The notes below the pieces were generated by a model. The model did not search any database. It worked only from the letters and a program-made list of their open reading frames with translations, and was not told where the DNA came from. 21,816 bases of DNA from a virus, in IMG/VR virus record IMGVR_UViG_3300031600_000039, positions 1-21,816 of that record, one strand, 5' to 3'. Below, one piece after another: positions 2 through 16,270 of the stretch. Each line of letters begins with the position of its first letter. Within the stretch, counting starts at the first letter, position 1. The position numbers and the translations under genes are program-made.

Positions 2-922
2 AGAATTAGATTTTATCAAACCGCTGATAGCATTTTAGATGATGGGTTTTTAGCAACCGATCCAGAATATATTGCAGCTAGTAGCGCACTATCACAAAAC
101 CCAAGACCAGTTAGAGTAGCTATCGGCCGCATCGATGCAGGTGATGCTTCCCTAACAGATTCACTAAATGCAGTTTCTCAGGAAAATGATGATTGGTATG
201 GCTTTGCTATTACATCTCGTCTTCAAGCTGATGTAGAAGAAGCAGCCGCATGGACCGAAGCTGAAATTAAAATCTTTGGCAGCGCATCTGATGATGTTGA
301 AATCCTTAACGCATCTTCAACAACTGATATTGGAGCAGTCCTTCAAGCAGCTGGTTATGCTAGAACTTTTGTAATGTACCATGATGAAGCAGCAACAGCT
401 TATCCTGAAGCAGCTTGGTTTGGAGTTCAACTTCCGACCGCTCCGGGATCTTCAACTTGGGCGTTCAAAACGTTGGCTGGTATTCCTGTTGTTGACATGT
501 CTTCTACTCAAAGAACAAATGCTTTTAATAAGAATGTAAATACATATGAACTAAGGGGCGGTGTTAACATCACTAAAGATGGTCAAGTTTCATCAGGTGA
601 ATATATCGACATTATCCGTGGGGTTGACTGGTTACAAGCTAGAATGACCGAGCGTGTTTATTTGCTATTAACTAACAGTCCGAAGATTCCTTATACAGAT
701 GCAGGTGTTGGTATTGTTGAAGCTGAAGTTAGAGCTCAACTAGATGCAGCTATAGCTCAAGGCGTTATTGCAATCGATCCAGCATATACAGTCACAGTTC
801 CTTTAGTAAAAAATATATCAACAAATGATAAAGCTAATCGCTTCTTACCAGACGTAAGATTCGAAGGAACTCTGCAAGGAGCAATACATTCAATAAGAAT
901 TCGTGGAATCGTTAGAATATAA
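2..922 (+). CDS. Contractile tail sheath protein, DUF3383-like (5' end cut off by window)
   Basis: The reading frame is open from base 2, so the start codon lies outside the window and 306 C-terminal residues are visible. The sequence runs through an N-terminal/middle region with GFLATDPEYIAASSALSQ and PRPVRVAIGRI, then TFVMYHDEAATAYPEAAW and a PGSSTWAFKTLAGI segment, and ends in IRIRGIVRI. This pattern is known from the DUF3383 family, which forms the contractile sheath of small myoviruses. The protein would polymerise around the tail tube and shorten to drive the tube through the host envelope. The following gene is a DUF3277-like tube protein, the usual sheath-tube order. An internal ATG at 374 exists but homologous sequence continues upstream of it, so it is not the start. 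The family assignment is from recognition, not a search. Confidence 0.85.
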   Translation, partial: RIRFYQTADSILDDGFLATDPEYIAASSALSQNPRPVRVAIGRIDAGDASLTDSLNAVSQENDDWYGFAITSRLQADVEEAAAWTEAEIKIFGSASDDVEILNASSTTDIGAVLQAAGYARTFVMYHDEAATAYPEAAWFGVQLPTAPGSSTWAFKTLAGIPVVDMSSTQRTNAFNKNVNTYELRGGVNITKDGQVSSGEYIDIIRGVDWLQARMTERVYLLLTNSPKIPYTDAGVGIVEAEVRAQLDAAIAQGVIAIDPAYTVTVPLVKNISTNDKANRFLPDVRFEGTLQGAIHSIRIRGIVRI

Positions 923-934
923 AGGAGATAAAAA

Positions 935-1381
935 ATGAGCGTAAGAACATATGATGCAGCACAAGTGATCCTTTCAATAGGTGGCGTTAATATCGGAGGA
1001 TATGCAGACGGTACTTTTATTTCAATTGAAAGAGAAGAGCAAAGCTTTACAAAAGTAGTAGGTGCTGACGGAAAAACAAGTAGAGCTAAATCAAATAACA
1101 GGTCTGGTAGTTTAACTATCACGCTGCAGCAAACCAGCCCATCGAATGATGTGATCTCAGGTTTCTTAACTCAAGACGAGTTAACAGCAGATGCAGTCGT
1201 GCCGGTTTTAATTAAAGATAACTCAGGTGAGTCAAGATTATTCTCAGCAACTGGATGGGTACAAGGTCTACCTACTATCGAGTATGCTAAAGAAATCTCA
1301 ACACGTGAGTGGGTAATGGATTTAGCCGATATAGAATTTAACATAGCTGGTAATGCAGCGATTGGCGGAGCAGAGGTATAA
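935..1381 (+). CDS. Tail tube protein, DUF3277-like
   Basis: This 148-residue protein fits the DUF3277 phage structural family, which sits directly after DUF3383 sheaths and is taken to be the tube (inner tail) protein. Visible hallmarks are an N-terminal TYDAAQVILSIGGVNIGGYA strand segment, a central FTKVVGADGKTSRAKSNNRSG segment rich in small and basic residues, and a predicted all-beta tail. It would form stacked hexameric rings inside the sheath and carry DNA to the host. A clear ribosome site (AAAGGAG, 7 bases before ATG) fixes the start. The gene lies 12 bases after the sheath stop and 3 bases before the chaperone gene, so the three are almost certainly co-translated. No odd residues or breaks were seen. 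Confidence 0.85.
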   Translation: MSVRTYDAAQVILSIGGVNIGGYADGTFISIEREEQSFTKVVGADGKTSRAKSNNRSGSLTITLQQTSPSNDVISGFLTQDELTADAVVPVLIKDNSGESRLFSATGWVQGLPTIEYAKEISTREWVMDLADIEFNIAGNAAIGGAEV

Positions 1382-1384
1382 TAA

Positions 1385-1819
1385 ATGATTGAGAATAAAG
1401 AAAGAACTATCAGCGGTAAAAGTTACGTGGTAACTCAATTTCCTGCTAGAAGAGCTTTAAAATTAAAGACAAGGCTAATTAAACTTGTAGCCCCTTCTTT
1501 GTTTTCAGTATTAGGAAATTCTGGTACTAACATTATGGAAACCAAAGTTGATTCAAGCATGATTAAAAGTGCGGTCTCTATTTTAGCAGATAAGCTAGAC
1601 GCAGATGAGGTTGAGGATTTAGTTATAAGTTTATTCGCATCGACTCGTCGTGATGGTAAAGAATTAAACGCAGCTGAGTTTGATCGAGCATATGCTGGTA
1701 ACTTTGGTGAAATGTACGGAGCTCTTCAGTTTGTACTGGAGGTGAACTTTGGATCTTTTTTAGACCAATTCCGTACTGGCAACCAAGGAGAAGTGCAGGC
1801 GGAAAATCATCTGGCTTAA
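1385..1819 (+). CDS. Tail assembly chaperone, short (zero-frame) product
   Basis: This 144-residue protein sits between the tube gene and the tape measure gene, the position of lambda gpG-type tail assembly chaperones. It has a helical, mixed-charge make-up, with a basic N-terminal segment (ARRALKLKTRLIKLVAP) and an acidic middle (ADKLDADEVEDLV). The family binds the tape measure protein and recruits tube subunits during tail assembly, and is absent from the finished virion. AGAGG upstream of ATG 1385 serves as ribosome site. Translation in the zero frame ends at TAA 1817-1819, but a slippery heptamer at 1756-1762 allows a second, longer product. Sequence similarity alone would give only a moderate call; position and the frameshift signal make the role firm. 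Confidence 0.85.
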   Translation: MIENKERTISGKSYVVTQFPARRALKLKTRLIKLVAPSLFSVLGNSGTNIMETKVDSSMIKSAVSILADKLDADEVEDLVISLFASTRRDGKELNAAEFDRAYAGNFGEMYGALQFVLEVNFGSFLDQFRTGNQGEVQAENHLA

Positions 1820-2010
1820 GCACTGGTAAGCTAGATCCAGAGCTTGAAGAAGAATGGCCGATATGGAGATTAATTTTTGAGAAAGTAGCGACCTTAAAAG
1901 AGCTAGAAGAGTTGTGGAATATTGATGATGTTGATCGGGCTAATTCTTTATTAGATATGCGAAAGTCTATAGAAGAAGAAGAATATAAGAAGAGTCAAAA
2001 GAAAAAATGA
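1385..2010 (+). CDS. Tail assembly chaperone, -1 frameshift fusion (gpGT-like)
   Basis: If ribosomes slip back one base at TTTTTTA (1756-1762), 126 zero-frame codons are joined to 82 codons of the -1 frame (next codon AGA at 1762), giving a 208-residue protein ending at TGA 2008-2010. The -1 frame has no good separate start: it is open from after a TGA at 1708-1710 and runs through PRRSAGGKSSGLSTGK into a helical, acidic domain (DPELEEEWPIWRLIFEKV, LEELWNIDDVDRANSLL) with a lysine-rich end. The tape measure ATG at 2007 overlaps this stop as ATGA, which makes sense only if the -1 frame is really translated. The gpG/gpGT pair made by -1 slippage is a conserved feature of long-tailed phages (known biology); the exact joint is inferred. 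Confidence 0.85.
1738..1762 (+). promoter_or_regulatory. Programmed -1 frameshift signal: internal SD plus slippery heptamer
   Basis: The zero-frame codons TCT TTT TTA contain the canonical slippery heptamer T TTT TTA at 1756-1762. Ten bases upstream lies GGAGGTGA (1738-1745), an eight-base match to the anti-SD end of 16S rRNA. An SD-like element about ten bases before the slip site is the known stimulator of -1 frameshifting in E. coli dnaX. No convincing downstream hairpin was found by eye in the next 60 bases. Confidence 0.85.
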
Positions 2011-3641
2011 TAGTCCGTGAATTACTAACCAAGATTGGTTTTAATGTTGATCAAAGTAAAATTCGTCAAGCGGATCAAGCTGTCAATGGTTTGACAACAA
2101 GATTAAATGGAGTCGCAGATGCAGCCATCGGTGCTGGTATGCGGCTCTCTGCTTTTGCAACATTGCCAATTGGTTTTCTTTTTAAAAATATTATAAAGGG
2201 CGCATCCGATGCTGCTGAAACTGCATCTAAATTTTCAGTGGTATTCAAGGATGTTTCTGAAGAAGCTATTGCTGTTCAACAAGATCTTGAAAAAAATTAT
2301 GGATTGAGTACTAGAGCAGCACAAGAGTTACTTTCTAATACAGGTGATCTATTAACGGGCTTTGGTTTTAATGGCAAAGCTGCTCTTGACTTATCACAAA
2401 AAACAAACCAATTAGCCGTTGACCTAGCCTCATATACCAACGTTGAAGGAGGTGCTAAGGTTGCATCTCAAGCTTTAACAAAAGCGTTGCTTGGTGAACG
2501 AGAATCTCTTAAGCAGTTAGGTGTTTCATTTAAGGAATCAGATGTCAAAGCTAAGATTTTACAATTGCGACAGGAGGGAATGACCTTCGAAACCGAACGG
2601 CAGGCTAAGGCTTATGCTGCTTTGGAAATCGCAATGGATCAATCTAAAAACGCCATTGGCGACTATGCAAGAACTAAGGATCAACTCGCTAACCGAGCAA
2701 GATTATTATCAGCACGAATTGAAAACTTAAGCAATAAGTTTGGTGATCTATTAATACCCATTACAGAAAAAGCCGTTACCATACTTTTGGAAGTGGTAGA
2801 ATATTTTGATTCATTGTCAAAAGAAACTAAAACTACAATACTTGGAATCCTTGGAGTAGTAGCTGTAGTGGGTCCCTTACTGCTAATATTCGGAGCTTTG
2901 ATAAAATCAATATTATTTATTGCGACTGCCTTTGAGGCTATTAAGTTTCGTGCTCTTATTAATGGTATGATGTCAGTAGTAACTTGGACTAAATCTACTG
3001 CTCTTGGCTTAAGGGCTATGGGTGCCGCTGCTATGTGGGCTCAGGCTAAGTTATTTTTAATACCATTAGCTATATTTGCTCTTATAATTGCAGTTGCAGC
3101 TGGAGCACAGGCATTATGGAATTGGCTAGATGAGAATGTTGATCTCTTAGATTTGTTAGAAAAAGCTTGGGAAGGCTTAAAAGATTTTATACCAGACATT
3201 GTTAAGGATGCATTTGCAAAAGCTTTTGAAATTGCTAAAACCATTGGTAATAAAATTAAAGGGTTCTTTGGATTTGGAGATGATGAAGAAGATAAAAAAG
3301 TAACGCTACAAACAACCGAGGATGTTACTAGGCGGTTATCTCCTGAGGAAAAGGAGGCAAGACAAAAACGTTCAGAGCAAATAGGTCGTAGTATTAATAC
3401 TCAAAGCTACGGCGCTGGGATGTTAACACCATCAACAACTTCAGAAATCTCTAGAATAAATAGCTCAACTATGAATGCTAATAAGAATGTTAATGTAAAT
3501 TTTGAGGTAGTAGTAAACGTACCACCCGGCACTCAGGAAGCGCAAGCTGAGTTTGTTAGGCAGGCCGCCCAAGCATCTTTTAGAGAAGAGTATAATCGTG
3601 AACTTGAAAAAGTTTTATTTGAAAACCCAGAGCTGGAGTAA
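2007..3641 (+). CDS. Tail length tape measure protein
   Basis: This 544-residue protein is mostly alpha-helical. Its N-terminal third contains VRELLTKIGFNVDQSKIRQAD and GASDAAETASKFSVVFKDVS, with the YGLSTRAAQELLSNTGDLLTG and SYTNVEGGAKVASQALTKALLG segments typical of phage tape measure proteins. Two strongly hydrophobic stretches (about residues 277-308 and 341-371) are of the kind thought to insert into the host membrane at DNA entry. Extended helical monomers in the tail lumen set tail length; 544 residues suggests a rather short tail of very roughly 80 nm (inference from about 0.15 nm per residue). The C-terminal 100 residues are charged and end in a segment like the region bound by the chaperones. 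The ATG overlaps the stop of the frameshifted chaperone gene. It is the longest tail-core gene before the baseplate genes, as expected. Confidence 0.9.
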   Translation: MIVRELLTKIGFNVDQSKIRQADQAVNGLTTRLNGVADAAIGAGMRLSAFATLPIGFLFKNIIKGASDAAETASKFSVVFKDVSEEAIAVQQDLEKNYGLSTRAAQELLSNTGDLLTGFGFNGKAALDLSQKTNQLAVDLASYTNVEGGAKVASQALTKALLGERESLKQLGVSFKESDVKAKILQLRQEGMTFETERQAKAYAALEIAMDQSKNAIGDYARTKDQLANRARLLSARIENLSNKFGDLLIPITEKAVTILLEVVEYFDSLSKETKTTILGILGVVAVVGPLLLIFGALIKSILFIATAFEAIKFRALINGMMSVVTWTKSTALGLRAMGAAAMWAQAKLFLIPLAIFALIIAVAAGAQALWNWLDENVDLLDLLEKAWEGLKDFIPDIVKDAFAKAFEIAKTIGNKIKGFFGFGDDEEDKKVTLQTTEDVTRRLSPEEKEARQKRSEQIGRSINTQSYGAGMLTPSTTSEISRINSSTMNANKNVNVNFEVVVNVPPGTQEAQAEFVRQAAQASFREEYNRELEKVLFENPELE

Positions 3642-3644
3642 GAT

Positions 3645-4211
3645 ATGTTAGTTAACTTTTTATTTTCGCCATTTACAAGACGTGGTAATCGCATAGGCTC
3701 ATTATCAATTGAGTGTACTTTATCTGAAACCCATTCGGCTACATCGAGAATAACTAATCAACCGGTCGAAGAAGGTTCAACTATTTCAGATCATATTGTT
3801 AACGATCCTGAAAAGGTAAATATAACAGGCTTTATTTCTGACACTCCACTTGATGCAAGCTATAGCAACTATTCGCAATTAGCATTCGATACCTTGTATC
3901 AAATCCGAGATACTAGAAATACTATATCAGTAGTAACTAACTATCGTGTTTATCAAGATATGGTTATTACTAACATTAGCGTACCACGTACTCAAGGATC
4001 TGGGCAGTCAATTCAGTTTAGTGTTGAGCTAACTAAAATACGTAAGGCAGGGTCTAATACTTTAGGATTGTTTGGAGCGCTACTTGCTGGAGATACTGAA
4101 GGAATAATTGACCAAGCCTCAAGTGCTTTAGATCTTGGAAGGTTGAACCCATCAGCGGCAACCGGACTTGTTGAAACAAGAGTAACAGATACTATAGGGA
4201 GGTTGTTCTAA
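3645..4211 (+). CDS. Dit-like distal tail / baseplate protein
   Basis: The 188-residue protein follows the tape measure gene by 3 bases. The N-terminal 135 residues contain SLSIECTLSETHSATSRITNQPVEEGSTISDHI and NITGFISDT, with a later TRNTISVVTNYRVYQDMVITNISVPR stretch. This pattern (embedded beta domain with E-x-H and P-V-E-x-G motifs) is known from the Dit-like N-terminal domain of phage tail proteins, which caps the tube and joins it to the hub. The C-terminal 50 residues (GLFGALLAGDTEG onward) look like a flexible, small-residue tail. The final base of its TAA stop is the A of the next gene's ATG (TAATG at 4209-4213). The family call rests on motif recognition and position. Confidence 0.75.
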   Translation: MLVNFLFSPFTRRGNRIGSLSIECTLSETHSATSRITNQPVEEGSTISDHIVNDPEKVNITGFISDTPLDASYSNYSQLAFDTLYQIRDTRNTISVVTNYRVYQDMVITNISVPRTQGSGQSIQFSVELTKIRKAGSNTLGLFGALLAGDTEGIIDQASSALDLGRLNPSAATGLVETRVTDTIGRLF

Positions 4212-4546
4212 TGTCATTAGTTATACCAGTCAGGCCCCTGCCAGCTTATTCATTTGAGGTCAATCTTGATAATGTTATTTACCGTATGGCGTTTCAGTGG
4301 AACTCTGTACATGAATTCTGGACTATGGATGTACAAACTAGAGAAGCAGAAAACTTAATCACTGGTATTAAGCTTGTAATAAACTACGAGCTAATTACAA
4401 GATATGTAGATCCCAACCTACCAGCTGGCGCTATCATCGCTCTTGATACGACAGGTAAGCTAGAGAGAATCGGGCGTAATGATCTTGGCAATGATGTCAA
4501 GTTAATCTATATACCACGAGGTGAATTCGATGACCTTGTTCAATAG
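4211..4546 (+). CDS. Baseplate plug protein (Pam3 gp18-like)
   Basis: This 111-residue protein has the compact all-beta pattern of the phage baseplate plug family: PLPAYSFEVNLDNVIYRMAFQWN, then EFWTMDVQTREAENLITGIKLV, a ITRYVDPNLPAGAIIALDT segment, and an ending in IYIPRGEFDDL. The plug is a small trimeric domain associated with the hub that closes the tube end; the family is best described from the Pam3 cyanophage baseplate. AGGGAGG lies 9 bases upstream of ATG 4211. The gene overlaps the Dit-like gene by one base and the hub gene by 17 bases, supporting a shared baseplate role. Confidence is high for the family, lower for the exact position in this phage's baseplate. Confidence 0.8.
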   Translation: MSLVIPVRPLPAYSFEVNLDNVIYRMAFQWNSVHEFWTMDVQTREAENLITGIKLVINYELITRYVDPNLPAGAIIALDTTGKLERIGRNDLGNDVKLIYIPRGEFDDLVQ

Positions 4547-5375
4547 AGTAATACAAACTAAAATTGGTAAAGCAGTTGGTGAAGGAATTGATGTAAGCGA
4601 CTTAAGAGTAAGTTTTACAATTTATAAAGCAATCGATCCAACTAGCAACTCCTGCCGAATAACGATTTATAATATGGCGGAAAATACCCGGAATCAAATA
4701 AGGGAGATTGATGATGTGATAACTATTAGCGCTGGTTATGCAGATGATGCTGGTGCTAAGTTAATGTTTACTGGTGATATCCTAAAGATCAATCATAAAG
4801 TTAGAGCGCCTGATATAATTTCAGAAGTTGAAGCAGGTGATGGTGCTAAAACATTAAGAGAAACTAGGATCTCGATATCGTTTAGAGAAGGAGCTGAAGT
4901 TAAAAGTGTTTTAGAAGATATCGCAAGTAAGCTAGATATAACATTAAGACCCCTACCTGATGATATACAAGGTCAGTATATTCATGGCTTTAGTTTTGCA
5001 GGGTCTGCTAAGGAAGGTTTAAATAAAGTAACCGAAAGAATTGATCTTGTTTGGTCGGTTCAAAATAATGAATTACAAATATTAAAAAGAAGAGCAGCGA
5101 TAAAGCTAGTGCCAAAACAAATTAGTTACTCGACTGGATTGTTAGAAGCTCCTGAAAAGTTAACTGATTTAAAAGCCAACCTTGAAAAGGATAAGCCTAA
5201 ACCGGGATATAGTTTAAGGATGTTATTGCTTCCCGATGTTGAGCCGGGTCAAACTGTTAACATAGATGCAGGACTTGTGTCTGGTCTTTACCGAGTTGAC
5301 CTAGTAACGCATGTTGGAGATAATGAAGGTTTCGATTTTATAACTAACTTAGAAGTCTCGGAGTATTCAGAATAA
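4530..5375 (+). CDS. Baseplate hub protein (gp27 / protein D-like)
   Basis: The protein (281 residues from ATG 4530) shows the fold pattern of hub proteins. It has an N-terminal LRVSFTIYKAIDPTSNSCRITIYNM strand-rich domain and an ITISAGYADDAGAKLMFTGDI segment. EVEAGDGAKTLRETRISISF marks the start of the second domain, followed by VLEDIASKLDITL, DLVWSVQNNELQILKR and a last beta domain (PGQTVNIDAGLVSGLYRVDLVTHVGD). Hub trimers link the tube to the spike. A GTG at 4521 could extend the frame by three codons, but the ribosome site GAGGTG at 4518-4523 is correctly spaced (6 bases) only for ATG 4530, so I chose that. It overlaps the plug gene and its TAA overlaps the spike ATG (TAATG). Confidence 0.85.
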   Translation: MTLFNRVIQTKIGKAVGEGIDVSDLRVSFTIYKAIDPTSNSCRITIYNMAENTRNQIREIDDVITISAGYADDAGAKLMFTGDILKINHKVRAPDIISEVEAGDGAKTLRETRISISFREGAEVKSVLEDIASKLDITLRPLPDDIQGQYIHGFSFAGSAKEGLNKVTERIDLVWSVQNNELQILKRRAAIKLVPKQISYSTGLLEAPEKLTDLKANLEKDKPKPGYSLRMLLLPDVEPGQTVNIDAGLVSGLYRVDLVTHVGDNEGFDFITNLEVSEYSE

Positions 5376-6172
5376 TGCAAGTAACGAATTTACCAGATGC
5401 TATAGCTGCAAGTATAAGAAGACACCTTGGGGAAATCCATACATGCCTGCCCGCAAGAGTCGAGAGCTATGATCATAAGCAGCAGCGAGCAAGCGTGCAG
5501 CCACAGATCAAAAAGAAATATCGTGATGGTTTAGTAGATGACATGCCAGTGATTGTTGACGTGCCAGTTATATGGCCCCGCTCATCTAACGCAAGCCTAA
5601 CATTCCCAGTTAACAAAGGTGATTACGTTATGCTAGTATTTGCCGAGCGTGCTATTGAAAACTTCCTAACACTTGGCGGTCTTCAAGAGCCGGGTGATCG
5701 TCGTAAGTTCGATCTAACAGATGCGATAGCAGTGCCGGGTTTATATCCGTTTAATGTGCCGTCACGTTCCGATAATAACGATGATGTGCTGCTCATCTAT
5801 AACAACACAAGTATTCGAATAAAGAAGGATGGTGATCTTGAGATCGTTGGTTCGAAAAATATGAAGGCAACAATCAAAGGAAATATCGAAGTTACTTGCG
5901 AAGGTAACCTAACTGCAAACGTTGGTGGTAATGCTACAATCGATATAGGTGGAACGACCGATCTAACATCTGGCGGGGATGTAAATATCACAGCGCCGAA
6001 TGTTAACATAACTGGCAACCTAACTGTTAGCGGTCAGACTGATCTTGCTGGCGGCGGTCCGGGCATCGCTCGTCAAGGTGACTCAGTTGAAGTTCAAGTT
6101 ACAGGTGGTTCAAGTGCGGGTACTTATTCAGGTACGATTACAGGAAGTTCAGGAAATTCAAGGAGTGGGTAA
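5375..6172 (+). CDS. Baseplate spike protein, Gp138 N-terminal domain
   Basis: The 265-residue protein starts with a Gp138-like OB domain (LPARVESYDHKQQRASVQPQ, VDVPVIWPRSSNASLTFPV, GDYVMLVFAERAIENFLTLGG) over residues 25-135. A beta-helical needle region with short repeats follows (IEVTCEGNLTANVGGNATID, DVNITAPNVNITGNLTVSG). It is the membrane-piercing central spike, bound to the hub. After GGGPGIARQGDSVEVQV, the last 25 residues are Gly/Ser/Thr-rich (TGGSSAGTYSGTITGSSG). That apex has no histidine, so the metal-binding H-x-H seen in some phage spike tips is absent here. The ATG overlaps the hub stop. Family and role are firm; the structure of the tip is unknown. Confidence 0.9.
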   Translation: MQVTNLPDAIAASIRRHLGEIHTCLPARVESYDHKQQRASVQPQIKKKYRDGLVDDMPVIVDVPVIWPRSSNASLTFPVNKGDYVMLVFAERAIENFLTLGGLQEPGDRRKFDLTDAIAVPGLYPFNVPSRSDNNDDVLLIYNNTSIRIKKDGDLEIVGSKNMKATIKGNIEVTCEGNLTANVGGNATIDIGGTTDLTSGGDVNITAPNVNITGNLTVSGQTDLAGGGPGIARQGDSVEVQVTGGSSAGTYSGTITGSSGNSRSG

Positions 6173-6547
6173 ATGAGTAATAGAGATTTATTGTTAAGCA
6201 AACAAAATAATGATTTGATCGTAAGTAGATTTGATCTAGGTATTGTTGAGGGTGTTGCCTCTACTGAGCAAAGACTTAAAGTACGATTGCAAATCTTTTT
6301 AAGGGAGTGGTTTTTAGACCGGACTGCTGGGCAGCCATATTATGAAGAGGTCTTTAGTAAAGCACCAAACATCAGTGAGATAGAAGCCAGACTTAAGGAA
6401 GCTATCCTAACGACCGAACGTGTACTTGAGATACTTTCATTTGATATAGACTTTAATAACGCATCGAGAACTTTGTTTGTTAACTTTGCAGTTAGTACCA
6501 TTGATGGCGATATTGTTATAGATGACGGAATAAATCTCAACGTTTAG
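6173..6547 (+). CDS. gp25-like sheath initiator / baseplate wedge protein
   Basis: The 124-residue size and motifs fit the gp25-like family of phages and contractile injection systems, which nucleates the first sheath ring and joins it to the baseplate. Visible motifs are QRLKVRLQIFLREWFLDRTAGQPYYEEVF (residues about 34-62), where the FLDR-x-x-G-x-P-Y core is diagnostic, then ISEIEARLKEAILTTERVLEI and a terminal beta hairpin (FAVSTIDGDIVIDDGI). AAGGAG about 9 bases upstream supports ATG 6173, which lies immediately after the spike stop. In this gene order it precedes the J-like wedge gene, as in many small myoviruses. No anomaly was seen. Confidence 0.88.
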   Translation: MSNRDLLLSKQNNDLIVSRFDLGIVEGVASTEQRLKVRLQIFLREWFLDRTAGQPYYEEVFSKAPNISEIEARLKEAILTTERVLEILSFDIDFNNASRTLFVNFAVSTIDGDIVIDDGINLNV

Positions 6548-6566
6548 TTGCTAATGCTTTTAAAGT

Positions 6567-6605
6567 TTGCAACTTATATGATATGATTGATTTAATAAAT
6601 TCAAT
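6567..6605 (+). promoter_or_regulatory. Possible weak internal promoter and AT-rich inverted repeat
   Basis: The 72-base gap 6548-6619 is the largest between the tail genes and breaks an otherwise tightly coupled series. It contains TTGCAA (6567-6572), 18 bases, then TTTAAT (6591-6596), and an imperfect palindrome with ATTGA (6586-6590) and TCAAT (6601-6605) as ends. The next gene has no visible ribosome site. In such AT-rich DNA this could be chance. Confidence 0.25.
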
Positions 6606-6619
6606 CTAGTGTAATAAGC

Positions 6620-8053
6620 ATGCCATTAAATTCCGGTGGATACCAACGAAAGCGTTTAGAAGAAATCAAAATAGAAATAGAGACGGATATCATTGCCGAG
6701 TTTGGTGAAGTTAACACCCAGCCCGATAGTGTATTTGGTCAGTTGATAGGAATTTTTGCTAAAAAAATATCAGATATTTATCAAGATAACGAGAATTTGT
6801 ATTTTTCAATGTATCCTTCGACAGCGGAGGGTGTATCTTTAGACAACGCCGTTGGCTTAGTTGGCATATCAAGATTAGCTGCTACTTTCTCAAGAGTAAA
6901 CGCAGCCGTAACAGGTGATCATGGAACTGCTATTATCCCGAACTCACAAGTAGAGGTAGAGGAAACCGGCGAGACCTTTGTCAATCCAAGTGCGGTTGTG
7001 ATAAATCGTAACAATGCTTTAATAATAAATGTAGAAGTGGTAACGCTTGCTGATAATACTGATTACAGTGTTTTAATAAACGGCACGCCTATTATCGTAA
7101 ACTCAAATTTGGGATCCACATTAGAGTCCATTGCAATCGATTTAGTAGATGCTATTAATTTATCAGCAGAACCAGTCACTGCGGAAATAGTAGATGGCGC
7201 TAGCTTTAGAATAACAGCAGATGATTTAGAGATATCCTTTGGATCTAGCGTTTCAAATAACATAGAATATATTGACGTTACAAGCCCAGCATTTTTTGAA
7301 GCAACAGTCACAGGACCGATCACGGTCTTGCCGGGTAAGTTAAATGTTATCGTTACTCCGATCTCGGGGTGGGATGCAGTCACTAACTTCTTTGATGGAA
7401 TTCAAGGGCGCGCCAGAGAAACCGATCAAGAATTAAGACTGAGACGCCGAAGTTCTCTCGCTGTTATTGGTGCTGCATCAATTCCTGCTATCAGATCTAA
7501 TCTACTTCAGAACGTTCAAGACGTAACTGGCGTGATTATATTTGAAAACCGAGAGCCATTTGTAGATGCGCAAGGTAGGCCGGGTCATTCATTTGAAGCA
7601 GTCGTTGAAGGTGGTGCAGATCAGGAAATAGCAGAAGAGATTTGGCGAGTAAAGCCAGCAGGCATCCAGACCTTTGGTAACGTAACTAATTTCATTATTG
7701 ATTCTAACAATGATCAGCAGGCAATATATTTCTCAAGACCAGAGCCATTATATTTATGGGTTCAGGTGGAGCTCGATATTGTAGCTGGTGCTTTCCCAAG
7801 CGAAGGAATAACAAGCGTAACGAATTCGATATTAGATACCGGGGCGCTGCTCGATGTTGGTGAGGATGTATTATTCCAATCCTTCTACGGAGCTATATAT
7901 ACGACTGCCGGTATTCAAAGATTAACTTTAACACTTGCTACTTCAAGTACTCCGGGCGGACCACCATCTGCATATGTTGCTGATAACATTAACGTAAGTG
8001 AAGTGCAAATTGCGCTATTTGATGTAAGTAGAATTAATATAAGTATAGCATAA
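6620..8053 (+). CDS. Baseplate J / gp47-like wedge protein
   Basis: The 477-residue protein has the Baseplate_J layout. The N-terminal helical segment is IETDIIAEFGEVNTQPDSVFGQ then YQDNENLYFSMYPSTAEGVSLDNAVGLVGI (residues 20-80), which is the hallmark arrangement. A beta domain follows with SRVNAAVTGDHGTAIIPN, and GWDAVTNFFDGIQGRARETDQELRLRRRSSL (about 250-280) is the conserved G-R-x-x-E-T-D-x-E-x-R-x-R motif. The C-terminal third ends with the LWVQVELDIVAGAF region. This wedge protein forms the inner ring of the baseplate that senses fibre movement and triggers sheath contraction. No SD sequence is visible before ATG 6620, and no alternative in-frame start lies in the 20 bases upstream, so translation efficiency is uncertain. 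The gene is followed after one base by the next wedge gene. Confidence 0.9.
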   Translation: MPLNSGGYQRKRLEEIKIEIETDIIAEFGEVNTQPDSVFGQLIGIFAKKISDIYQDNENLYFSMYPSTAEGVSLDNAVGLVGISRLAATFSRVNAAVTGDHGTAIIPNSQVEVEETGETFVNPSAVVINRNNALIINVEVVTLADNTDYSVLINGTPIIVNSNLGSTLESIAIDLVDAINLSAEPVTAEIVDGASFRITADDLEISFGSSVSNNIEYIDVTSPAFFEATVTGPITVLPGKLNVIVTPISGWDAVTNFFDGIQGRARETDQELRLRRRSSLAVIGAASIPAIRSNLLQNVQDVTGVIIFENREPFVDAQGRPGHSFEAVVEGGADQEIAEEIWRVKPAGIQTFGNVTNFIIDSNNDQQAIYFSRPEPLYLWVQVELDIVAGAFPSEGITSVTNSILDTGALLDVGEDVLFQSFYGAIYTTAGIQRLTLTLATSSTPGGPPSAYVADNINVSEVQIALFDVSRINISIA

Positions 8054-10186: not shown

Positions 10187-12013
10187 ATGCCACGTCAGAT
10201 AACCGATTTACCAATTGCAACCCAAGCAGATGATGCTGATCTACTTTTACTCCGTCAAGGTTTATTCGATAAACAACTTGATGTTTCAGTTTTATTAGAC
10301 GGCTTATTAAAAGCAGACAATAACTTAGCAGATGTTTTAGATCCAGCAGCAGCGAGAACTAACTTAGGCATTAACACAGCTGACTTTTTAGAGTCTGCAA
10401 ATAACCTATCCGATGTTGCTAACGCAGCGACGGCGCTTACTAACTTAGGAGGGGCTGCAAGTGGTGATGTACTTCTTAAAGCTAACAACCTAAGTGATGT
10501 TGCCAATGCAGCAACCGCACGCACGAACCTAGGTATCGATACAACAGACTTTCTTTTAACAACAAATAACTTAAGTGATCTAGATGATAACGGCGTTGCT
10601 AGAACTAACTTAGGCGTGCCGGCAACAAGTGATGTATTAATCGCAGCGGATAACTTATCTGATGTTGCTAATGCTGGAACGGCTAGAACAAACTTAGATG
10701 TTCCAAGTACAACGGAGGCATTATTAGTTGCTAACAATTTATCTGATATCGCTAACACTGCCACTGCTAGAGCTAACCTTGGAATCGATACGAGTGACTT
10801 CCTATCGACAGCTAACAACTTAAGTGATTTAGCTAACGCCTCTACGGCTCGAGTAAATCTTGACGTCCCTTCGAATACTGAAGCGCTACTTGTAGCAAAT
10901 GATTTATCCGATATTGGAAACGCAGGAACTGCTAGAACTAATTTAGGTATTGATCTTTCATTATATCTGGAGGCATCGAATAACTTAAGTGACGTTGCTA
11001 ACGCAGCGACAGCTAGAGCAAACCTCGGGATCGATACAAGTGACTTCCTTGCATCTGCTAATAACTTATCGGATTTAGCAAACGCAGCTACGGCTAGAAC
11101 GAACTTAAGTGTTCCTTCCACTACCGAGGCACTACTTGCTGCCAATGATTTAAGTGATTTAGCAAATGCTGGTACGGCGAGAACAAACCTTGGGATTGAC
11201 TTAAGCTTATATACTGAGAATGCAAATAACTTAAGTGACTTGGCAAACGCTGCCACGGCTCGTACTAATTTAGATGTACCGAGTACAACCGAAGCGCTTT
11301 TAGCAGCTAACAATTTATCCGACGTTGCTAATGCAGCAACTGCCAGAACGAACTTAGGAATTGATACGAGTGATTTCCTTGCAGCTGCAAACAACTTATC
11401 TGACCTTGCCAATGCTGGAACTGCTAGAACAAACTTAGATGTACCTTCAACAACGGAAGCGCTTTTAGCAGCTAATGATTTAAGTGATCTAGCGAATGCG
11501 GCAACAGCTCGTACCAACTTAGGAGTTTCGGCAACGGCTGATACTTTACTAGTTGCTAACAACTTATCAGATGTAGCAAATGCAGCAACGGCACTAACAA
11601 ACTTAGGTGCTCAAGATGCAGCGACAGCAGCCGTGCTAGATGCGACGAATGACTTTAACTTTAACGTTCAACAGGAAGCGCAGCTTAAAAACTATAGTGA
11701 AACTTCAGATGCGGTTGGTAGCATAACTGGAACCGCTGACTTTGATTTTGTCGATGGTAATGTTAAGACAGCCACGGTAACTGGAACAGTAACTATAACA
11801 TTTTCAAATCCACCAGCATCAGGGCAGGGTGGTAGCTTTTTCTTAATCTTAACTAATGGCGGAAGTAATGCGGTAACATGGCCCGCTTCAGTTCAGTGGT
11901 CAGATGGAACGGCTCCAACTTTAACAGCTGCAGGAACTGACTTGTTAGTATTTACAACAGTCGATGGCGGCACGACATATTATGGAGCGCTTGCTGGTAA
12001 GGCAATGGCTTAA
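10187..12013 (+). CDS. Long tail fibre protein with 16 NNLSD-type repeats
   Basis: The 608-residue protein has three parts. Residues 1-43 are an N-terminal attachment segment (QITDLPIATQADDADLLLLR). Residues 45-486 consist of 16 tandem units of 27-28 residues with the consensus N-N-L-S-D-x-A-N-A-x-T-A-R-T-N-L-G-I/V. The last 110 residues form a beta-rich tip (TATVTGTVTITFSNP, WPASVQWSDGTAPTLTAAGTD, ending GALAGKAMA). The NNLSD-x-A-N-A-A-T-A-R-T-N-L repeat is well known in the shafts of phage tail fibres. This protein would form a trimeric stalk that reaches a host surface receptor. AAAGGAG precedes the ATG. The shorter gene at 13763 shares its start and tip regions but has only three units. 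A beta-propeller gene follows after a 9-base gap. Confidence 0.88.
   Translation: MPRQITDLPIATQADDADLLLLRQGLFDKQLDVSVLLDGLLKADNNLADVLDPAAARTNLGINTADFLESANNLSDVANAATALTNLGGAASGDVLLKANNLSDVANAATARTNLGIDTTDFLLTTNNLSDLDDNGVARTNLGVPATSDVLIAADNLSDVANAGTARTNLDVPSTTEALLVANNLSDIANTATARANLGIDTSDFLSTANNLSDLANASTARVNLDVPSNTEALLVANDLSDIGNAGTARTNLGIDLSLYLEASNNLSDVANAATARANLGIDTSDFLASANNLSDLANAATARTNLSVPSTTEALLAANDLSDLANAGTARTNLGIDLSLYTENANNLSDLANAATARTNLDVPSTTEALLAANNLSDVANAATARTNLGIDTSDFLAAANNLSDLANAGTARTNLDVPSTTEALLAANDLSDLANAATARTNLGVSATADTLLVANNLSDVANAATALTNLGAQDAATAAVLDATNDFNFNVQQEAQLKNYSETSDAVGSITGTADFDFVDGNVKTATVTGTVTITFSNPPASGQGGSFFLILTNGGSNAVTWPASVQWSDGTAPTLTAAGTDLLVFTTVDGGTTYYGALAGKAMA
10319..11644 (+). 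repeat. 16 in-frame tandem repeats of 81-84 bases in the fibre gene
   Basis: Sixteen units encode 27-28 residues each (442 residues in all). Two alternating tails are seen, GIDTSDFL-type and VPSTTEALL-type, with a third, GIDLSLY, in two units. The Ser of the NLSD core is written as AGT, TCC, TCT, TCG or TCA in different units, so units are close in protein but clearly different in DNA. Confidence 0.92.
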
Positions 12014-13039: not shown

Positions 13040-13750
13040 ATGAATAATATAAACTTAGACACTAGAAAAGAATTAATTGGGCAGGGCATATATTCTATTA
13101 CGAATATAGCAACCAAAGAGGTTTATATTGGCTCTACCATTAATTTGAAAAAAAGAATACATCAGCATTTTAATGATCTTTCTCGTAACGATCATGATAA
13201 TAAAAACTTGCAAAAAAGTTATAATAAATATGGTTCGGAGTTTTTTGTTTTTGACGTTCTTGAGCATTATGAAAATATAGAAAGAGACTTTTTGTTTGAA
13301 AGAGAAAATATCTATATAAAAAAATATAAAGACAATATGTTTAATATGTCTTTAGATGCTAAGTGTGTAAAAGGTGTTCAGTTAAAACACACCCCAGAAA
13401 GTAAAAAAAAGATATCGTTAAAAAGTTTAGCTAATTGGCAGGATCCAGACTATTTAAGAAAGATGGAATCTAGGATTCATACCGAAGAAACTAAAGCCAA
13501 AATGAGCGATGCCCATAAAGGCAAAAAGTATAGTTTGGGTTATAAACACGATGATGAGTTTGGTGCTAAAATTAGTGAAAGGATGACAAAAAACAATCCT
13601 TTTAAAGGCCAAAAACATACAGAAGAGACTAGAAAAAAAATGTCCGAATGGCAAAAAACTAGGCCAGCTCCAAGTGAGGAGACTCGTCAAAAACTTAGAG
13701 AAGCAGCTTTAAAACGCTGGAATAAAAATAAAGAACTTAATAAAAATTAG
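13040..13750 (+). CDS. GIY-YIG homing endonuclease with NUMOD3 motifs
   Basis: The 236-residue protein carries GIY at residues 16-18, YIG at 29-31, a likely catalytic Arg in LKKRIHQHF (R39) and a likely metal-binding Glu in ERENIYI (E89). The C-terminal half has at least three NUMOD3-type DNA-binding repeats (HTEETKAKMSDAHKGKK, GQKHTEETRKKMSEWQKTR, SEETRQKLREAALKRW). Such free-standing endonucleases cut related phage genomes lacking the gene and spread by recombination. The gene is richer in A/T, Lys and Asn than its neighbours, and 78 bases separate it from the preceding gene, suggesting separate acquisition. It lies between two adhesin cassettes, a typical place for it to favour its own cassette in mixed infection. 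All key motifs are intact, so it is probably active. Confidence 0.92.
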   Translation: MNNINLDTRKELIGQGIYSITNIATKEVYIGSTINLKKRIHQHFNDLSRNDHDNKNLQKSYNKYGSEFFVFDVLEHYENIERDFLFERENIYIKKYKDNMFNMSLDAKCVKGVQLKHTPESKKKISLKSLANWQDPDYLRKMESRIHTEETKAKMSDAHKGKKYSLGYKHDDEFGAKISERMTKNNPFKGQKHTEETRKKMSEWQKTRPAPSEETRQKLREAALKRWNKNKELNKN

Positions 13751-13762
13751 AGGAATTGTAAT

Positions 13763-14500
13763 ATGCCAGATCCACGTCAAATAACTGAGCTCCCTATTGC
13801 TACACAGGCCGATGATGCTGATTTAATGCTAATGAGACAAGGCTTGTTTGATAAACAAGTTGAAGTTGATTTAATAAGAGCTGGGCTTTTAAGAAGCACA
13901 AATAATTTATCTGATCTAGATGATCCTGCTGCGGCAAGAGTTAACCTAGGCGTTGCCACTGGTAACTTCCTTCAGGTTGCAAATGACTTATCTGATCTTA
14001 ATGATCCTGCTACGGCAAGAGTTAACTTAGGTGTTGATACATCTGATTTCTTATCTGCTACAAATAACCTATCGGATTTAACAAGTACAACAGCTGCACT
14101 TACTAACCTATCTGCTGCTGGCCTAACTGTTGACAATGATTATGGTTTTAACATTCAAGAGAATATGCAGATCCAAAGTTATAGTGAAGTCACTAATAAC
14201 ATCGGTAACGTAACAGGTGTGCAGGCTTTAGACTTAGCAGTAAGTAATATTCATTCAGTAACAGTAACTGGTAACACTACTTTTAGTTTTACAAATCCAG
14301 CGTCAGCAGGGCAGACATCAAGTTTATTTTTAGAAATAACAAATGGTGGTAGTGCATCAGTAGCATGGCCGGCAAGTGTCCAGTGGCCAGCAGGAACTGC
14401 GCCGACTTTAACAACAGCAGGTACTGACATCTTGATCTTTATCACAAGAGATGCAGGAACCACATGGCGTGGCGTGTTATCAGGTAAAGATTTTAGTTAA
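13763..14500 (+). CDS. Short tail fibre protein, related to the long fibre
   Basis: The 245-residue protein shares the N-terminal segment (RQITELPIATQADDADL, GLFDKQVEVD) and the C-terminal beta tip (TVTGNTTFSFTNPASAGQ, WPASVQWPAGTAPTLTTAGTD) with the gene at 10187, but has only three NNLSD-type units, from base 13901. The DNA of the shared parts differs at many third codon positions, so the copies are old or come from different phages. GAGGA lies 8 bases before the ATG. Both would be trimeric fibre subunits that dock on the baseplate by the same N-terminal segment. The short shaft would place its tip closer to the baseplate. It is followed by a chaperone-like gene and a beta-propeller gene. 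Confidence 0.85.
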   Translation: MPDPRQITELPIATQADDADLMLMRQGLFDKQVEVDLIRAGLLRSTNNLSDLDDPAAARVNLGVATGNFLQVANDLSDLNDPATARVNLGVDTSDFLSATNNLSDLTSTTAALTNLSAAGLTVDNDYGFNIQENMQIQSYSEVTNNIGNVTGVQALDLAVSNIHSVTVTGNTTFSFTNPASAGQTSSLFLEITNGGSASVAWPASVQWPAGTAPTLTTAGTDILIFITRDAGTTWRGVLSGKDFS

Positions 14501-15086: not shown

Positions 15087-16043
15087 ATGTTAAAAGAAAG
15101 AGCAATCCTAGCGGCTGCATCTGAACCGTCAAATACAGGTGGCGGCGGTGAGTCTGAATTTATTTGGGGAGCTGATGATTCTCACGACGTCAAAAAGTTT
15201 GATCGTTTTGGTAATGAGCTGTGGTCTTATACGACCTTTACTTCAACAATAAGACGAACTTATGTTGATACTGCTGGTAATGTTTACGTTTCTGAGAATG
15301 CGGGCAATACGGCAAAACTAGACCCTAATGGTAATGAGCTTTGGAATCTTTTTGTAAGATCTTATGGTGTGGCATTAGATAGTAATGGCGATGTCATTAG
15401 TGCATCTACTAATGATGGCTTAGTAAGAAAGTTAAGTACTACAAACGGTTCAACTTTATGGACTTATGATCCAGTTGATGAAGCTACTTACATCTTAGCT
15501 ATTGCTGTCGATTCTTCTGATAACATATATTTTGCAAACCGAAGTTTTTTGTTTAAAATAAATACTTCAGGTAATCAAGTCTTTAAACTAGCCGTCTCTT
15601 TAGGACCAAACTCAGTAAGAGGAATTGCTGTAAATTCATCTGGAGAAATTTTTACTGCTAATGGTAGTGGTACTTTATCTTATTTTAATTCTTCAGGATC
15701 TTTTGTTAGGTCGGTTTCAGTTGGTGGTTTTCCTTATGGTGTAGTTATAGACAGAGATCAAAATGTTTTTGTATGTGGTCAAGGCTCTACAAATACTTTA
15801 AGAAAATATAATTCAGATTTAACCTCGTTATTAGAATCATATGATGCATCTAATGCAACAACATACTTTTATACTTTGGCAGCGGATGATGACGGGTTTA
15901 TATACGCTGCATCTAGGGCTGGTCAAACTGGAATATTTAAGTTTGATACAAATTTAAATTTACAGCTAACTGTTGATACTACAGCTAACTATGTATCAGC
16001 AGCTGTACTGCCGGGTCGTTTAAATGTTTCACAGGGGTTATAA
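15087..16043 (+). CDS. Beta-propeller tail adhesin with glycine hinge (second copy)
   Basis: The 318-residue protein has the same design as the gene at 12023: a short helical N-terminus (LKERAILAAAS), a GGGG hinge (residues 18-21), then about seven repeats of around 40 residues (for example VKKFDRFGNELWSYTTF, AKLDPNGNELWNLFV, VRKLSTTNGSTLWTYD, IAVDSSDNIYFANRS). The blades fit an NHL/PQQ-type propeller of seven blades. Sequence identity with the first copy is limited to the motif positions, so they are distant relatives. AAGGAGG before the ATG gives strong translation. Position after a fibre and a chaperone-like gene points to a receptor-binding role; this is inference. Confidence 0.7.
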   Translation: MLKERAILAAASEPSNTGGGGESEFIWGADDSHDVKKFDRFGNELWSYTTFTSTIRRTYVDTAGNVYVSENAGNTAKLDPNGNELWNLFVRSYGVALDSNGDVISASTNDGLVRKLSTTNGSTLWTYDPVDEATYILAIAVDSSDNIYFANRSFLFKINTSGNQVFKLAVSLGPNSVRGIAVNSSGEIFTANGSGTLSYFNSSGSFVRSVSVGGFPYGVVIDRDQNVFVCGQGSTNTLRKYNSDLTSLLESYDASNATTYFYTLAADDDGFIYAASRAGQTGIFKFDTNLNLQLTVDTTANYVSAAVLPGRLNVSQGL

Positions 16044-16045
16044 TT

Positions 16046-16270
16046 ATGAACGCATTATTTAGTTTTTTCAAAGACAGATTAAAAGAACGCAGCACATGGA
16101 CGGGTCTTGCCTTACTTGGCGGGGCTCTAGGTGTACACTTCGATCCTGAGCATATCCCTCAAATCATTGAGACTAGTGCGGAGATCTTAGGAGCTGCCTA
16201 TATAATTAGTCCTGATAAAAAGAAGCCACAAGGTCGTAGACCAAAAGCCGAACAAAAAAGAAAAAAATAA
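16046..16270 (+). CDS. Holin-like small membrane protein
   Basis: The 74-residue protein has a charged N-terminus (FKDRLKERSTW), a hydrophobic segment (TGLALLGGALGV), a short polar loop with FDPEHIPQ, a second apolar segment (IIETSAEILGAAYIISP) and a very basic C-terminal tail (PDKKKPQGRRPKAEQKRKK). The R-S-T-W-x-G-L start, the P-E loop and the P-D/E at the end of the second segment are familiar from small phage holins that follow the tail fibre genes. A holin would permeabilise the inner membrane to release the lysozyme encoded at 18446. AGGGG lies about 8 bases before the ATG. The second membrane segment is only moderately hydrophobic, so another membrane or virion role is possible. Confidence 0.5.
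   Translation: MNALFSFFKDRLKERSTWTGLALLGGALGVHFDPEHIPQIIETSAEILGAAYIISPDKKKPQGRRPKAEQKRKK

Follow-up and report, generated by a model that had tools for sequence, protein, structure and literature searches.

The tail assembly chaperone gene of a myovirus represented by a 21,816-nt IMG/VR virus fragment (hereafter, the window) very probably carries a programmed −1 ribosomal frameshift signal, with pairing between an internal Shine-Dalgarno (SD)-like sequence, GGAGGTGA, and the 16S rRNA acting as the stimulator. Such ribosomal slips are common in phages, and in long-tailed phages the length of the tail depends on a fixed ratio between two chaperone forms. As judged from the sequences compared, the cassette is dnaX-like, with both the SD and the downstream hairpin varying between lineages.

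According to the mechanism that we propose, the majority of ribosomes would read 1385–1819 and release the 144-aa chaperone. When the P and A sites are occupied by TTT-TTA, the 3′ end of the 16S rRNA would pair with GGAGGTGA behind the ribosome, holding and pulling the mRNA, and a minority of ribosomes would settle into the −1 frame, with renewed pairing on TTT-TTT (tandem slippage). The shifted ribosomes would continue to position 2010, yielding a 208-aa fusion as the minority product. By analogy with the G/GT proteins of phage lambda, the 144-aa form would cover the tape measure, whereas the added C-terminal domain would enable the 208-aa form to bring in subunits of the tube. For the phage of the window itself, frameshifting and its rate, as well as the role of the SD as the main stimulator, are predictions from sequence, and the role of the two forms in tail assembly is predicted from the lambda analogy.

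Tail module and the frameshift cassette

The genes for the sheath, the tube, the Phage_TAC_15 chaperone and the tape measure follow one another in the window (Table 1), the chaperone being placed as in G/GT-type systems. The chaperone scores 81 bits with the Pfam Phage_TAC_15 profile (PF21822), above the curated cut-off of 22.

Table 1. Features of the tail module and of the predicted frameshift cassette in the window
Feature	Position	Strand	Support
Tail sheath (DUF3383), C-terminal part; frame open to window start	374–922	+	Pfam 1.6e-17; phrog_205 2.8e-61
Tail tube-like protein (KPP10_Orf10), upstream neighbour	935–1381	+	Pfam 6.3e-13; phrog_280 2.1e-43
Zero-frame tail assembly chaperone (TAC-N, gpG-like), 144 aa	1385–1819	+	Pfam Phage_TAC_15 1.4e-22; phrog_1613 tail assembly chaperone 1.9e-27
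GGAGGTGA, putative internal SD-like stimulator, over Leu-Glu-Val-Asn codons	1738–1745	+	Sequence; family-wide synonymous-codon test
10-nt spacer, SD to slip site	1746–1755	+	Sequence
Slippery heptamer T_TTT_TTA	1756–1762	+	Sequence; position kept in homologues
Predicted −1-frame extension (TAC-C, gpT-like), 82 codons past shift, TGA 2008–2010	1762–2010	+	Sequence; conserved motif
Candidate hairpin TTCCGT...GCGGAA, imperfect/bulged, weak, starting 6 nt past heptamer	1769–1804	+	Folding; family peak at +6/+7
Tape measure protein gene; ATG overlaps −1-frame TGA	2007–3641	+	phrog_991 6.4e-18

The elements named in the original prediction, namely, GGAGGTGA, the 10-base spacer and T_TTT_TTA in the zero frame, are exact, as is the course that it gave for the −1 frame. 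This frame is open from position 1711 to the TGA overlapping the ATG of the tape measure gene, for a predicted fusion of 208 aa, and the heptamer, which covers the zero-frame codons TTT (1757–1759) and TTA (1760–1762), lies ahead of the stop codon of the 144-aa product. Among the 31 in-frame XXXYYYZ heptamers in the genes of the window, no other is preceded at 7–14 nt by 6 or more bases matching the anti-SD, and −1 runs of at least 84 codons are found at only ~1% of the zero-frame codon positions. Searches of Pfam and PHROGs with the −1 domain of the window returned no solid family. Another heptamer, TTTAAAT, lies at 16019 (region 15950–16043), close to the end of the gene at 15087–16043, and the −1 run of 83 codons that follows it results from the following gene, at 16046, being in that frame; this heptamer has no SD and is probably incidental.

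Plasmid 1 of Criblamydia sequanensis CRIB-18 (L248), the best annotated relative of the window chaperone, is collinear with the tail module of the window (374–8053), with 51% identity for the sheath, 57% for the tube and 32–47% for most of the proteins further down. In this plasmid, the −1 frame fills the unannotated gap between the chaperone and the tape measure genes. The window may derive from a phage infecting environmental chlamydiae or a relative. Further along the window, tail-fibre-like genes with many repeats of '(A)NNLSDVANAATARTNLG' occupy 10187–12013 and 13763–14500, and a GIY-YIG-like endonuclease ORF (13040–13750) and beta-propeller-like ORFs lie between and around them (all named by eye).

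Conservation of the slip site and of the −1 frame

Homologues were gathered through tail tube protein searches, two DNA patterns, one of which required VNFG and T6 but placed no constraint on the codons for Glu and Leu or on the third Val base, and named phage and plasmid records. The chaperone profile then picked 77 unique proteins among the matches listed, which form 62 clusters at 60% identity. The slip place falls on the same codon pair in all 77 homologues, apart from an offset of at most one codon in a few that are furthest removed. T_TTT_TTN is present in 51 of these sequences (46 clusters), in a sample drawn partly by the pattern that required T6; one example is Escherichia phage DrSchubert/Bas50 (L251), which carries GGAGGTTA-10-TTTTTTC. 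G_GTT_TTT is found in Pakpunavirus, Otagovirus and Nankokuvirus, C_CTT_TTY in one group of environmental phages, and the remaining homologues retain at least T_TTN. The G_GTT_TTT and C_CTT_TTY types still hold a U_UUU or U_UUC tetramer, which is known to shift in E. coli given a stimulator (PMC4066793).

In all 76 homologues free of contig-end cuts, the −1 frame is open for 72–121 codons past the slip pair and ends near the next gene, whereas the +1 frame mostly closes early. The −1 protein is conserved from ~8 residues past the slip (YW motif), with the consensus FF..YW...E-W..WRLV...ATL.ELE..W..DD..RAN.LLDM, whereas the zero-frame tail diverges in the alignment. All readable homologues retain the slip codon pair, the −1 frame and the conserved −1 protein, as expected if the gene is frameshifted in the way originally predicted.

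Selection on the Shine-Dalgarno sequence

Because the SD overlaps the codons of the conserved Leu-Glu-Val-Asn motif, we evaluated it against a synonymous null, in which each homologue was compared with recodings drawn from the codon usage of its own contig, with the peptide held constant. The tested interval was narrow; a broader one also took in a far-upstream GAGG of the G_GTT_TTT class. For the 46 T_TTT_TTN clusters, the pairing energy at the SD, scored against a 16S 3′ end which may not be that of the window's host, was about −9.4 kcal/mol versus −5.0 kcal/mol expected (Z about −9.5, with clusters counted as independent). At other codon offsets, from −25 to −3 and downstream, pairing in the same test was flat or weak (strongest Z −2.6). 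Within this class, the Glu codon at the SD is GAG in 34 of 38 cases (19 expected), the Val codon is GTG in 24 of 39 (8.8 expected) and the Leu codon is CTG in 18 of 31 (5.5 expected). These results support natural selection on the SD beyond protein coding in the relatives and agree with the SD-type stimulator proposed originally. The SDs are weaker in the two tetramer classes (p 0.003). Against the proposed reading, L006, the closest different relative, has only GAGGT.

The frameshift could be real and GGAGGTGA a functionless by-product of the Leu-Glu-Val-Asn-Phe peptide combined with G-ending codons. Given that this peptide is conserved under the SD, the conservation of the latter is indeed partly protein-driven; furthermore, the peptide is kept even in members lacking an SD (e.g., VRVNFGDLF in L232), and individual members rarely reach p<0.05 alone. 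However, the null retains both the peptide and the codon usage of the contig, and the signal nonetheless stands out at this place only, so that we consider a by-product improbable.

When IMG/VR was scanned for GGAGGTGA-N10-TTTTTTY with no use of protein information, a frameshift architecture was seen in 66 of 120 matches (54 of the 120 belong to the TAC_15 family), compared with none of 119 when the spacer was set to 5 nt. Such specificity of a pattern independent of homology suggests that frameshift predictors could be sharpened. The 10-nt spacing in the window is within the 9–14 nt range known for SD-stimulated −1 frameshifting (PMC5009743). A tendency to stronger SDs alongside the poorer A-site codons UUA/UUG than alongside UUU/UUC is no more than suggestive (p 0.09; UUU versus the rest, p 0.01). 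UUA in the A site is less shift-prone than UUU or UUC (PMC4066793), a point against the proposed reading.

The strong SD would also fit a separate gene in the −1 frame, started internally, for which GGAGGTGA would be the true ribosome-binding site of a rare start codon, either alone or beside frameshifting as in IS911. An ATC at 1753 in the −1 frame of the window is 7 nt downstream, that is, at initiation spacing, a single SD serves both initiation and frameshifting in an IS element (PMC5009743), and in many records the downstream ORF is listed as a hypothetical protein in its own right. Yet in most relatives the codon at the ATC place is CGA, GGA or similar, none of which is a start, and the first of the codons ATG, GTG or TTG to occur in the window's −1 frame is the TTG at 1912, after the conserved WRL...ATL core has begun. 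Considering how close to the slip the conserved −1 protein begins, these observations point to a fusion, and a separate gene, which does not fit them, appears very improbable.

A helix downstream of the slip site in the family

The original prediction described a clean SD-driven signal with no 3′ structure, a description that the family does not support. When helices are scored by their distance from the heptamer, their starts in the T class peak sharply 6–7 nt past it (Z 6.1–6.5, versus 0.56 ± 1.12 for control anchors), which suggests that a 3′ helix at this distance is a second conserved feature of the chaperone family. In the window, the candidate hairpin has an energy of −8.3 kcal/mol and does not stand out from shuffled sequences, p being 0.07 when only a start at +6 is allowed and 0.19–0.32 when the start has more freedom. 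Among the homologues, 9-bp hairpins are found downstream of the slip in L009 and L015, and helices of 10–11 bp with differing right arms in L186, L248, L021 and L017. General minimum-energy folding of 60-nt downstream stretches yielded no more than a weak signal, and the best-of-all-folds score was nearly null. A search of Rfam with the window region 1600–2100 returned nothing credible, and among the homologues no general tendency for strong SDs to go with weak hairpins was found (Spearman −0.06, p 0.63).

Taken literally, the combination that the original prediction named as refuting it, an open −1 frame with neither the SD nor the T heptamer, does occur in a few homologues (e.g., L232, L016 and L238). 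In these, C_CTT_TTT preserves the shift-prone U_UUU tetramer and the hairpins are the longest of all (13–15 bp), which suggests that the stimulator has been replaced rather than that frameshifting is absent.

It is hardly conceivable that the T run acts instead through transcriptional slippage, generating mixed mRNAs with no ribosomal frameshift, because, although the run comprises six T, and up to eight in some relatives, six is short for slippage by RNA polymerase, members with C_CTT_TTY or G_GTT_TTT have just four or five T with the frame still kept, and the SD and the helix at +6/+7 are stimulators of translational shifts.

Relation to known frameshift systems

The frameshift itself is of a known kind and has already been predicted in this chaperone family, namely, in Vandenendeviridae and Andersonviridae, in the description of Pseudomonas phage Adele (December 2025; PMC12846349). 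The annotations of the Felix O1-like phages Moogle (PMC4319497) and Mijalis (PMC5543628) already carry it, and in the record of Salmonella phage Meda (MH586731) a 'tape measure chaperone frameshift product' is annotated in two pieces. The chaperones of Vandenendeviridae and Andersonviridae share with that of the window the gene place, the protein family, a poly-T slip site and a −1 frame open to the tape measure gene. However, PMC12846349 gives a GTTTTT motif with no mention of a Shine-Dalgarno sequence, whereas in the window and in most environmental relatives the heptamer T_TTT_TTN is complete and is preceded by an SD at a distance of 10 nt. The conserved dnaX-type SD and downstream helix, with lineage-specific replacement, appear undescribed, although an earlier mention of the SD in the subscription literature is possible.

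The likeness to E. coli dnaX extends to the SD ~10 nt upstream, the heptamer and, in many relatives, the hairpin 6–7 nt downstream. The heptamer of dnaX, however, is A_AAA_AAG, whereas the window has a T heptamer and a weak hairpin, and the dnaX shift leads to a shorter product at a ratio near 1:1, whereas that in the window would lead to a longer, presumably minor product.

To our knowledge, a conserved SD stimulator is no described part of the tail chaperone set of Xu, Hendrix and Duda (2004). Lambda G/GT resembles the window in having a C-terminal domain added by frameshifting to a chaperone encoded directly before the tape measure gene, but the protein family and the slip sequence, in lambda as in that set, differ from those of the window. 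Transposase frameshifts of the IS3/IS911 type rely on the same type of SD stimulator for −1 shifting, but the genes are unrelated and the motifs are mostly A_AAA_AAG; an SD stimulator has been estimated for 56% of IS elements (PMC5009743), and a conserved SD was present in 3 of the 13 IS and prophage clusters of one survey (PMC4066793).

In a single family, with the signal at a fixed place, nature has combined slip site, SD strength and hairpin strength in dozens of ways, all presumably tuned for one task, from which the mutual substitution of SD pairing and 3′ structure becomes measurable. Annotation is mended as well, given that what most such phages show ahead of the tape measure gene as a gap or a 'hypothetical protein' would be the C-terminal half of the chaperone. 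We further suggest, as a tentative scenario with somewhat less than even chances, that the slip codons are fixed, whereas lineages acquire, lose and exchange the two stimulators, an SD encoded through synonymous codons and a 3′ hairpin, in a way that maintains the product ratio, and that the SD-U6 cassette occurs also in chaperones outside TAC_15, by convergence or very old descent.

The cassette in other gene families

The combination of GGAGGTGA-10-TTTTTTY with a long −1 extension was observed in several other zero-frame families (L291, L309, L330, L334, L343, L348, L353, L358, L365, L366, L376, L288 and L325). These include members of phrog_1442 (tail assembly chaperone; L288, L325 and L365) and related 'EVNxxGFF' genes (e.g., L330, L348 and L353); L348 had no match in the phage collection. 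T4-like chaperones are not known to use frameshifting. It is therefore of interest that in L277 (1299–2093, minus strand) GGAGGTGA-10-TTTTTTC and an 87-codon −1 extension stand at the end of a T4_baseplate (PF12322)/baseplate hub-like gene.
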